Source of the DNA: an uncultured Bacteroidota bacterium
GTDB lineage: Bacteria; Bacteroidota; Bacteroidia; Flavobacteriales_D; Sanyastnellaceae
NCBI GenBank assembly: GCA_903932685.1
Contig: CAIZGX010000001.1
Location: 1-64,000 of the forward strand
Length of the DNA stretch: 64,000 bases
Direction: 5' to 3'
Shown here: positions 24,667 through 58,810 of the stretch, piece by piece
Layout of the letters: each line of letters starts with the position of its first letter
How positions within the stretch are numbered: position 1 is the first letter of the stretch
Position numbers and translations under genes: made by a program
Notes under the pieces: generated by a model
Database searches by the model: none
The model's input: the letters and a program-made list of their open reading frames with translations, nothing else
What the model was told of the DNA's origin: nothing

Positions 24667-25161
24667 ATGCAGAAATCCGAATTACTCAACACCGAAGAAA
24701 TTGAGCAAAAGCTCATCCGCATGGCTTATGAAATAGCTGAGCGTCATTACAACGAAAAGAACATTGTTTTCATTGGCATTGAAGACAACGGAGCTGCAGT
24801 TTCCAAAAGACTATTCGAATTGGTGAAAGAAATTGTTGCCATTCCTTGCGAAATCAGTAGCATTCAACTTTCAAAAGAGAACCCAATCGGAAGCGTTCAA
24901 CTTTCTACTTCTGTTGTTCTTAAAAATAAATGTGTTGTGCTCATCGACGATGTGTTTAATTCTGGACAAACACTCATGCACGCCGCATCATTTCTTGTTT
25001 CCAAGGAAATTCACAGATTAACTACAGCCGTTTTAGTGGAGAGAAAACACAGACGTTTTCCAATCAAAGCAGATTTCGTTGGATTGAAATTATCAACGAC
25101 ATTGAAAGAACATGTGACCGTGAGTATGGACGGGAAAAACTCTTCGGTGACGATTCGTTAA
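24667..25161 (+). CDS. Phosphoribosyltransferase (PyrR-like)
   Basis: PRPP motif VVLIDDVFNSGQTLMHA; AVLVERKHRRFPIKADFVG as in PyrR family. Confidence 0.82.
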   Translation: MQKSELLNTEEIEQKLIRMAYEIAERHYNEKNIVFIGIEDNGAAVSKRLFELVKEIVAIPCEISSIQLSKENPIGSVQLSTSVVLKNKCVVLIDDVFNSGQTLMHAASFLVSKEIHRLTTAVLVERKHRRFPIKADFVGLKLSTTLKEHVTVSMDGKNSSVTIR

Positions 25162-27458
25162 TTTATTTCGAAGGCGAAATTCAACATGAAATTTCTTCCC
25201 GCTTGTGGATAATAAAAGCGCTCTGTGATTGTGCTTCCGTATATGTATGAAAAGGCATAACCGTTGCTCGCATACATTCTATTGAAAGCGTTATTCACCC
25301 AAAAAGTGATCTTAACTGAAGGCTTCGGACCGTATTTCGAATCCCATTGAATACCGAAATCTGAAACAGCAAATGCAGTAATCACAGCAGTGCTGCTTCC
25401 AGTGTTATCGAGGTGCTGCTTCCCAACAAACTTTTCATTGAACAACAGATACAATTGCTTTCTTACTGGCTTCATGGTCATGCGCCATCCATGCGGAAAA
25501 ACCTGATATTCGGCAGTTAATCCCGCAACAACATTCGGACTGAAAGCGATGTCCGTAGTTCCCCGCGCAATCACTTCTTCCGCATAAGTATCATAATTCA
25601 AAATGCGCTCTTGGAAGTCAATAATCTTATTCTCACTCAACGTTAAGTTAGCACCTACTCTCAACCTTTGTTTGAAATAAGCCGAAGAACTTAATTCAAT
25701 TCCTCTTCTGTATGACTGAGCCACATTCGTTCTCAACGGCGCTCCAACATCGTTCAAAGCGCCTGTAAGCACCAACTGATTGTTGTAGTTCATATAATAT
25801 ACATTTACATCGATTGTAGAATTGTAGTCATCTTTGAAATGAAGTCCCGCTTCAAAGTCGGTCATGTATTCGTTCTGTGGGATTTGACCAAAAGGAGCAT
25901 CAACAAAATCATTTCTATTAGGCTCCTTCCCCGAATGCGCAACTGAAGCATAAACCGAAACAAACTTTCCAGCAAAATAACGAAGGCCAATTTTTGGATT
26001 TAAAAAATTGGTTGTCATATCAACATCATATTCCCTTTGATCGTTGTCGGTTCCCATGGTCTTATAAGAAACATACCTCGCTTGTAAATCAGCGTTGACA
26101 ATTAACTTCCTTGGCACAACAGCCCACTCTATTTTCGAAAAAGCATTCGCGTCGTATTTGTCTGATTGTCCATAATAATATTGATAATCGAGGACAAAAA
26201 TTAGTGGCGTTCCAGTAGCAATGACTCTTCCGTAATGTTGACCACTGTAATGATTCAAACCTACTCCTGAAGTGCTCGTGAATTTTCTCTTTCTAATCAC
26301 ATACGAACTTGTCGCCCCATAAAAGTTATTGTTCAACCATCTTCTTCTTACCAAATTCGTGAGCGAAAGCGTATCTCCATTTACAATTTGTGGAAGCATG
26401 TTGTAGTTCGTAACATCCTGATCTGTTTTGAATTGTTCGAAATACCCTTCTCCATGTGTGAAGTGTAAAGCAGCTCTAAATTCATGCATTGCGCCATCTC
26501 TTTTCTTGGAAGAAAAATAATGTGCCTGCGCATGTTCTTGTCTATAATTATCAATTTCGTTCTCGTAGAGATAAGCATTGTACGTTCTACCCGAATTCAA
26601 TAAATTATCGATATCGGCTTGCGATGCACCATTGCGACTTGCAAACGCAAGTATATCGGATGTGGTTCCGTATAGTTTTTCATAAGGAGTTCCATTCCAA
26701 GCCTGATAAGTGTTTTCCTTTCCACCAAAAACAAAAAATGTCAATTCCTTTGAACGAAGATGTTCCTTGTGTAGCGTAAATTTTCCTTTGGTGAAATAAG
26801 AGAACAAATTTGTTCTAGCTCGATCGATGTAGCCTTCGGATTCAATTCGACTAACGCGAATATTGTACTCAAAATTAGGTCTCGCCTTGTTTCCTATTTC
26901 AAACATTAATTTGTTGCTACCAAAAGAACCTCCACCCGTATTAATTCGAACAAAATTCCGCTCTAAATCTGTGTCGGTATCTAAGTGTATGCTTCCACCA
27001 AAAGAACCTGTTCCATTTGCAGACGTTCCTATTCCGCGTTGAACTTGGATGTTCGAACTGGAAGAGGCTAAGTCGGGTGTGTTCACCCAAAACACTTGCT
27101 GACTTTCGGGATCGTTCAAGGGAACTCCGTTTATAGTAACATTCACGCGCGTGGGGTCACTTCCCCGGATCCACAAGCCCGTATAGCCGATTCCGTTACC
27201 AGCATCCGATGTTACGGTAAGAGAAGGTGTGAAACGCAAAAGGAATGGCAGATCCACCCCGTTGTTGATTTTATCAATATCCATTGGTTTCAGATTCGTC
27301 AACGCGAATGGAGCATCATTTTCAGCCGACCATACGTCGCGAATACTAATAGGATTTAAAACAAAAGTTGGAACAATTGTCGTGTCTTTTTTTTCTTGTG
27401 CACATACACTTGATGCAACAAAAAGAGCAACGCTTACAAAAACAATTTTCTTAAACAT
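25158..27458 (-). CDS. TonB-dependent outer membrane receptor, predicted thiamin/TPP-regulated
   Basis: Signal peptide MFKKIVFVSVALFVASSVCAQ; plug IRGSDPTRVNVTINGVPLNDPESQQVFW, RGIGTSANGTGSFGGSI; terminal beta signal NFMLNFAFEIN; TPP riboswitch in leader. Start at ATG 27458. Confidence 0.92.
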   Translation of the reverse strand: MFKKIVFVSVALFVASSVCAQEKKDTTIVPTFVLNPISIRDVWSAENDAPFALTNLKPMDIDKINNGVDLPFLLRFTPSLTVTSDAGNGIGYTGLWIRGSDPTRVNVTINGVPLNDPESQQVFWVNTPDLASSSSNIQVQRGIGTSANGTGSFGGSIHLDTDTDLERNFVRINTGGGSFGSNKLMFEIGNKARPNFEYNIRVSRIESEGYIDRARTNLFSYFTKGKFTLHKEHLRSKELTFFVFGGKENTYQAWNGTPYEKLYGTTSDILAFASRNGASQADIDNLLNSGRTYNAYLYENEIDNYRQEHAQAHYFSSKKRDGAMHEFRAALHFTHGEGYFEQFKTDQDVTNYNMLPQIVNGDTLSLTNLVRRRWLNNNFYGATSSYVIRKRKFTSTSGVGLNHYSGQHYGRVIATGTPLIFVLDYQYYYGQSDKYDANAFSKIEWAVVPRKLIVNADLQARYVSYKTMGTDNDQREYDVDMTTNFLNPKIGLRYFAGKFVSVYASVAHSGKEPNRNDFVDAPFGQIPQNEYMTDFEAGLHFKDDYNSTIDVNVYYMNYNNQLVLTGALNDVGAPLRTNVAQSYRRGIELSSSAYFKQRLRVGANLTLSENKIIDFQERILNYDTYAEEVIARGTTDIAFSPNVVAGLTAEYQVFPHGWRMTMKPVRKQLYLLFNEKFVGKQHLDNTGSSTAVITAFAVSDFGIQWDSKYGPKPSVKITFWVNNAFNRMYASNGYAFSYIYGSTITERFYYPQAGRNFMLNFAFEIN

Positions 27459-27500
27459 GTATTTTACTTTGTGCGCACGACAGGGGTTGTGGTGCACGTT

Positions 27501-27606
27501 GTTCTTCTTTTCCTTGGCGGCATTACCCGCCCAGGTTCCTCTTGTTCTGAAACAAGAAGGGTTTAATCTCAGCCATTTTTTTTACGAATGGCACCCCTAT
27601 GAGAAC
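27501..27606 (-). ncRNA. TPP riboswitch (THI element)
   Basis: Minus strand GTTCTCATAGGGGTGCCATTCGTAAAAAAAATGGCTGAGATTAAACCCTTCTTGTTTCAGAACAAGAGGAACCTGGGCGGGTAATGCCGCCAAGGAAAAGAAGAAC: GGGGTGCC, GGCTGAGA, ACCC, GAACCTG, TAATGCC, AAGGA in canonical order; P1 GTTCT/AGAAC, P3 GCCATT/AATGGC, P5 GGCGG/CCGCC. Confidence 0.93.
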
Positions 27607-27610
27607 GCAG

Positions 27611-27639
27611 CAAATATAGAAAGGTATTACCTTAGACAA
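27611..27639 (-). promoter_or_regulatory. Promoter of the riboswitch-TBDR transcript (TTG-N18-TATATTTG)
   Basis: Minus-strand TTG 27639-27637 and TATATTTG 27618-27611; predicted TSS falls at the start of riboswitch P1. Confidence 0.75.
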
Positions 27640-58297: not shown

Positions 58298-58810
58298 ATG
58301 CGCATTGCTTTCACGGGTCCAGAATCAACTGGTAAAACAACCCTTTCGAAATGGCTTTCAACAGAGCTGTCGGATACTATCTTTATCCCGGAATTTGCTC
58401 GCGAATATCTAGAAGAGCGAAAAATTGTTCGAGCAAGTGAGAATGACTTTCGAGCTATTGTAAAACGTCAATGCTCACTTTTTAATCAAACGGAATCAAA
58501 TGCTCATCATATTTTCGATACCGATATTTTTGTTCTACGAGTTTGGAATGATGAGGTTTTTAAATTAAAATTACCTGAACTTGAAATTCTTCCTTCATAC
58601 GGAATGAACATTCACTTCTTGTGTGCTCCTGATGTGGAATGGGAAGAAGATTCACTTAGAAGTGCACCGGCTCAATCAGAGAGAGGGAGATTATTTGAAA
58701 AATATAAAATCGAACTTCGGAATTCACAAGTAAACTTTATAATTCTATCAGGAAGTCTAGATGAAAAAAAATCTCTTATACTATCGTCGATTCAAGACAA
58801 TTCCTTTTGA
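58298..58810 (+). CDS. NadR/AAA_28-like P-loop ATPase
   Basis: MRIAFTGPESTGKTTLSKWLS, FIPEFAREYLEER, IFDTDIFVLRVW. Confidence 0.85.
   Translation: MRIAFTGPESTGKTTLSKWLSTELSDTIFIPEFAREYLEERKIVRASENDFRAIVKRQCSLFNQTESNAHHIFDTDIFVLRVWNDEVFKLKLPELEILPSYGMNIHFLCAPDVEWEEDSLRSAPAQSERGRLFEKYKIELRNSQVNFIILSGSLDEKKSLILSSIQDNSF

Follow-up and report, generated by a model that had tools for sequence, protein, structure and literature searches.

A structurally variant THI-type riboswitch upstream of a predicted thiamin receptor in an uncultured Bacteroidota bacterium

The locus: receptor, leader and promoter

The window, by which we mean the whole 64,000-nucleotide stretch analysed, carries on its minus strand a gene for a TonB-dependent receptor preceded by a short leader, a riboswitch aptamer and a promoter, and on its plus strand a kinase gene that bears on the proposed function. 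The features discussed below are as follows.

25158-27458 (-): TonB-dependent receptor of 766 aa, predicted thiamin receptor (PF00593, PF07715; THI element upstream of homologues)
27480-27487 (-): anti-aptamer segment ACCCCTGT, complementary to P2 ATAGGGGT (27600-27593), from the MFE structure
27493-27608 (-): THI/TPP-class riboswitch aptamer, from the RF00059 match and our own model R1
27501-27606 (-): P1, GTTCT 27606-27602 with AGAAC 27505-27501, from the sequence
27597-27594 and 27561-27558 (-): P2, GGGG with CCC(T), invariant in alignment A4
27592-27587 and 27577-27572 (-): P3, GCCATT with AATGGC, covarying in alignment A4
27571-27567 (-): TGAGA, the UGAGA pyrimidine-sensor loop (J3/2), invariant
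27561-27559 (-): CCC box, from the sequence
27540-27557 (-): stem-loop inserted in J2/4, (T)CTTGTT 27557-27551, loop TCAG, AACAAG(A) 27546-27540, from covariation
27538-27532 (-): GAACCTG box, from the sequence
27512-27535 (-): P4-P5 arm without a J4/5 loop, made of CCT 27535-27533, G 27532, GGCGG 27531-27527, GTAATG 27526-27521, CCGCC 27520-27516, A 27515 and AGG 27514-27512
27515-27512 (-): AAGG box, from the sequence
27611-27639 (-): Bacteroidota-type promoter, TTG 27639-27637, 18-nt spacer, TATATTTG 27618-27611, from sequence and conservation
58298-58810 (+): NadR-like P-loop kinase, predicted thiamin kinase (PF13521, TIGR01526 domain match, gene neighbourhood)

The reading frame that the earlier note had placed downstream of the riboswitch is a real receptor gene, with its start ATG at 27458 and matches to the barrel (PF00593, 76 bits) and plug (PF07715, 42 bits) domains; a sequence search of the PDB returned no relative of it. 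Named congeners of the source organism are environmental MAGs carrying the label Flavobacteriales. Receptors 97% and 81% identical to the window's are encoded on two sequences titled Chryseobacterium gleum (L072, CAMCVP010000015.1, and L074, respectively), which correspond to genomes of the host genus (G008 and G009) and whose organism label looks wrong.

The promoter TTG-N18-TATATTTG, likewise proposed earlier, is present upstream of the aptamer, and its -7 box is conserved: of 137 receptor-linked elements, 123 have a TAnnTT[TC]G box in the 60 nt preceding P2, where shuffles would give about 8, and in most cases the box ends 9-16 nt short of P2. The sigma-70 consensus had no match in 27611-27639 (-). 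Directly adjoining the promoter is the likely GTG start predicted for the divergent rsgA (27640, + strand).

A THI element with an added stem and a changed arm

In a local search, the RF00059 covariance model matched 27608-27493 (-) with 33.7 bits (E = 4.7e-5), and across the 2.37-Mb genome the window element was its sole match (E = 7.6e-5). The score falls short of the Rfam gathering cutoff of 54.3 bits, which is why a default Rfam scan of the window lists nothing at 27608-27493 (-) and the site was recovered by the local search. Our own covariance model R1 gives the element 108 bits, the window sequence itself being part of that model. RF00059 matches occur in 87 of the 114 genomes of the host family, nearly always one per genome, and exceed the cutoff in only two of the 114. 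The pyrimidine sensor is intact in the window element, with UGAGA and P2 invariant and P3 covarying, and covariation of P3-P5 is seen across the realigned relatives.

The earlier note had read a TPP riboswitch from THI-box hallmarks on the minus strand and had suggested an RF00059 search. All the boxes it named are where it placed them, including GCCATT/AATGGC and GGCGG/CCGCC, and the RF00059 match is significant, though below the cutoff. Two features had escaped it, a hairpin at 27557-27540 between ACCC and GAACCTG and a J5/4 without CG, and the second of these touches the claim itself: its THI-type homology holds by the RF00059 E-values, but the J5/4 CG of the pyrophosphate sensor is absent. 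Judged by its sequence, the window element is a genuine homologue of the TPP (THI-box) riboswitch, structurally variant. We would file it as a homologous variant rather than as a TPP-binding member of RF00059, because of the three pyrophosphate-sensor bases (G60, C77, G78) the last two are missing and the loop has become a pair.

The first departure lies in J2/4, where the window sequence between P2 (ACCC) and GAACCTG reads TTCTTGTTTCAGAACAAGAG. When 399 genomes of the host order were searched with a pattern for a long J2/4, 28 had a match, and none did with the reversed pattern used as control. Six matches in five genomes (L182-L186, L210) were discarded as normal aptamers or coding sequence; the remaining ones form a stem from unrelated sequences and come from genera g1, g5, g7, g10, g12 and g19 of the host family and from two other families. 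RF00059 had no match in the genomes of g5, g7, g10 and g12, and the g19 genome (G082) is not among the matched ones; RF00059 thus missed J2/4-stem elements in five further genera. Changes on both sides were counted in 7/7 pairs of this stem, with 89.9% of cells paired, in a covariance-model realignment that is fitted to the structure and so biases covariation counts in its favour; it was used because MAFFT placed the stem off by one base in some rows. For the whole structure, 0 of 500 shuffles matched the observed covariation values, and the signal was lost when the partner strand was slid. Infernal's own alignment read the extra hairpin as P3a at the cost of a broken P2. We rejected this placement because the relatives retain GAUUANACCCUU immediately ahead of the hairpin and have a canonical J2/4 elsewhere. 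In the accessible part of Barrick and Breaker (PMC2258182), the optional stem of the TPP riboswitch is P3a, and that part makes no mention of a J2/4 stem; a survey of open-access literature turned up no account of a J2/4 stem or of a paired J4/5. Comparable J2/4 inserts occur elsewhere in the phylum, upstream of thiC too. The J2/4 stem and the changed arm together explain why the standard Rfam model misses whole genera.

The second departure is in that arm. In canonical aptamers the J5/4 bases C77 and G78 are strongly conserved and lie near the pyrophosphate (PMC3764141), C77/G78 make direct β-phosphate contacts (PMC6414600), and in solved structures the CG bases contact the β-phosphate and its metal (PMC6414600, PMC3764141). 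The window arm, CCU-G-GGCGG-GUAAUG-CCGCC-A-AGG, is one base shorter than the canonical arm on each side and has no CG (E. coli C77/G78), keeping G27532 as the equivalent of G60; the pair G27531-C27516 occupies the place of the canonical pyrophosphate-binding loop. A 7/7 arm of this kind occurs as 49 distinct P4-P5 strings; the former loop position is Watson-Crick in 38 of them (A-U, C-G, G-C and U-A all occur), compared with a mean of 14.3 and a maximum of 29 in 20,000 shuffles. Thus, in paired-type elements a covarying base pair takes the place of the J4/5 loop. Other arm forms were also seen. J4/5 is shortened on the 5' side only, with the 3' CG kept, in L270-L275 and L279, a possible intermediate form, and a still shorter arm without CG (such as GCCAAG TAAT TTTGGAG) occurs in L128, L136, L139, L140 and L144-L151, labelled Flavobacteriaceae or Cryomorphaceae.

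Gene association and thiamin salvage

Across Bacteroidota, a THI element precedes 49 of the 56 receptor loci whose upstream sequence is long enough, and it is through this receptor family that the element stands upstream of a thiamin-related gene. We parsed 243 distinct elements by J4/5 type and downstream gene. A receptor lies downstream of 197, and 149 of these are of the paired type; paired-type elements otherwise precede one other gene and, once, no gene on the contig, so that 149 of the 150 with a downstream gene are at receptors. CG-type elements, by comparison, precede 47 receptors and 34 other genes, most of them for thiamin biosynthesis, or up to 44 if ten CG-bearing elements left unclassified by the parser, all upstream of non-receptor genes, are included. 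The Fisher p of 3e-17 for this 2x2 table overstates the evidence, because the elements share ancestry and some were collected through homology of their receptors. The non-receptor genes are ThiC, ThiD and Thi4 where checked with Pfam, and by sequence others resemble ThiC, ThiE, ThiG, ThiM or a methyltransferase. In L247 and L255 a methyltransferase-like gene directly follows a canonical THI element.

The contrast within genomes is less sensitive to kinship and sampling bias than the Fisher p. Six genomes (G730, G627, G741, G691, G575, G587) have the paired type at the receptor and the CG type at thiC; G695 and G489 have the CG type at thiC and a slightly different CG-less arm at the receptor. 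Most of these eight belong to one genus. In G026, of the host family, a canonical element was seen by eye before a ThiE-containing stretch, with the paired type at the receptor. Eight or nine genomes thus hold both kinds. We had taken the paired type to be strictly confined to receptors, a view softened by its sole exception, G752 (L341 / L324), in which a paired-type element precedes a Thi4 thiazole synthase gene. Tandem THI elements 120-170 nt apart occur upstream of the receptor in L087 (5752, 5871) and L092 (5429, 5601), those of L092 being of different J4/5 types.

Within the host family, ThiC was found in 0/114 genomes, thiamin pyrophosphokinase (TPK) in 0/114 over cutoff with PF04263 and in 0/61 with TIGR01378, and ThiE above cutoff in 2/61. 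ThiL is present in 61/61 genomes (59 over cutoff), a PnuC-family carrier in 105/114 and a NadR-like P-loop kinase (PF13521) in 60/61; by eye, carrier and kinase are neighbours in about 48/61. In 44 of 56 loci from other Bacteroidota, genes for PnuC and a NadR-like kinase precede the THI-receptor unit and share its strand. The pnuT/tnr3 pair that the earlier note had suggested looking for was not found as such in the source genome, where a PnuC-family gene lies 44 kb from the receptor, PnuC and kinase are unlinked to it and TPK was not found. A PnuC-family gene at L162:7211-7717 (+), about 12 kb beyond the window kinase, is a candidate thiamin carrier.

This gene content predicts a salvage route for vitamin B1 that includes a candidate thiamin kinase. 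The nearest named relatives of the kinase at 58298-58810 are ribosylnicotinamide kinases, and we predict thiamin as its substrate because TMP for ThiL must come from thiamin or from import. As a prediction, thiamin uptake by the receptor is well supported. Of the thiamin or thiamin-precursor uptake foreseen in the earlier note, the first part is supported, in an organism predicted to need exogenous vitamin B1; precursor uptake is unlikely, because ThiE, the enzyme that couples HMP to thiazole, is absent from almost all of the 61 genomes and ThiC from all 114, and the host would import thiamin rather than its precursors.

Regulation, ligand and known systems

The explanation we favour, with a probability of roughly 0.8, is that a THI-type riboswitch in a short 5' leader controls a receptor importing thiamin or thiamin phosphate, with salvage through PnuC, the kinase and ThiL. 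Transcription would start at the base of P1. With thiamin compounds plentiful, the aptamer would fold and retain the 5' P1-P2 strand; with thiamin compounds scarce, this strand would pair with the downstream ACCCCUGU and receptor expression would rise, a direction we infer from known THI elements. The receptor would then move thiamin or thiamin phosphate over the outer membrane and, inside the cell, a PnuC-family carrier, the NadR-like kinase (thiamin to TMP) and ThiL (TMP to TPP) would act in turn, a route predicted because ThiC, ThiE and TPK are missing. In the models, the free leader folds at -53.7 kcal/mol with AUAGGGGU paired with ACCCCUGU, compared with -48.8 when the aptamer is enforced, and the alternative pairing reaches p <= 0.05 in 43 of 137 related leaders, about 7 being expected from mononucleotide shuffles. 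The two modelled folds are mutually exclusive, as expected of a switch. The model of the ligand-bound state showed no sequestration of the start codon, accessibility being about equal in both modelled folds, and the leader has no intrinsic terminator; control may act at translation or by another route. Counting against the scheme, transport operons under TPP riboswitches in B. thetaiotaomicron keep their RNA level unchanged with thiamin (PMC5613172).

Two readings that depart from this explanation fare poorly. The low RF00059 score could point to a decayed, non-functional THI element, but the match is kept in most host-family genomes, the J2/4 stem and P3-P5 covary, promoter spacing is conserved and the element persists in further genera invisible to RF00059, which makes decay barely credible. 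It is only slightly less improbable that the receptor imports another compound and that its THI element is coincidental: PnuC and NadR-like genes bear nicotinamide riboside names and such pairs could serve that compound, yet the element recurs before the receptor in the great majority of loci and across the host family, in an arrangement like OMthi of B. thetaiotaomicron (PMC5613172).

The ligand is a finer question within the favoured explanation. TPP itself is not established as the ligand of this sequence, and thiamin or TMP is a live alternative; recognition of TPP may differ because the CG that grips it is missing. We see an even chance that the element still senses TPP through a remodelled arm, with the pyrophosphate held via metal ions at a G.A mismatch and the change reflecting lineage drift. 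Every other feature of the class is kept, J5/4 variation partly tracks lineage and TPP feedback is sensible for uptake genes; few positions, however, are as conserved as C77/G78 (PMC3764141), and biosynthetic elements in the same genomes retain them. The other possibility, clearly the less probable of the two, is that the paired-J4/5 variant senses thiamin or TMP and tunes the receptor by the imported vitamin. Canonical aptamers need pyrophosphate (KD 50 μM for thiamin and 50 nM for TPP; PMC4112796), and here the bases for β-phosphate contact have given way to a covarying pair beside an intact pyrimidine sensor. The distribution also points this way: the paired type is almost wholly at receptors, CG-bearing elements also control thiamin-biosynthesis genes, and genomes holding both split them between receptor and biosynthesis. 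Against it stand the retained metal-coordinating G60 equivalent (G27532), the possible alternative phosphate site at the G.A mismatch, the paired-type element upstream of Thi4 and the 47 CG-type elements that likewise control receptors. We can thus propose only tentatively that a subclass of the TPP-riboswitch scaffold, widespread in Bacteroidota and characterised by the paired J4/5, no longer recognises pyrophosphate and responds to thiamin or TMP, tuning the receptor by the imported form, while biosynthesis in these cells is controlled by canonical TPP aptamers.

Few metabolite riboswitches are as widespread as the TPP class, and its members are thought to require the pyrophosphate. A variant common in nature that does without the phosphate contacts, and sits almost only before a single uptake gene, would represent either a thiamin-sensing class or a second mode of TPP binding. 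The window element shares with the TPP riboswitch (RF00059, THI element) the P2-P5 topology, the UGAGA pyrimidine sensor, the UNAU L5 loop, the G60 equivalent and a place upstream of thiamin genes, and differs from it in the extra J2/4 stem, the covarying pair in place of the C77/G78 loop and the sub-cutoff score. By gene arrangement, a close parallel is OMthi (BT2390) of Bacteroides thetaiotaomicron, a TonB-dependent receptor behind a THI element in a genome with a PnuC-family carrier; loss of OMthi in a biosynthesis mutant impairs growth below 100 nM thiamin (PMC5613172). That host, however, has a thiamin biosynthesis operon and tnr3, whereas ThiC, ThiE and TPK were not found in the source genome. 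Guanine-class and ykkC variant riboswitches with altered ligands (PMC7266159) offer a precedent for gene-linked changes of ligand contacts on a kept scaffold, but there single bases changed, whereas here an internal loop is lost and an altered ligand is only a candidate. The HMP-PP (thiS motif) riboswitch (PMC6478431) senses a thiamin-pathway compound other than TPP, as may be the case here; it is an unrelated, terminator-embedded aptamer, whereas the window element is a homologue built on the TPP scaffold.
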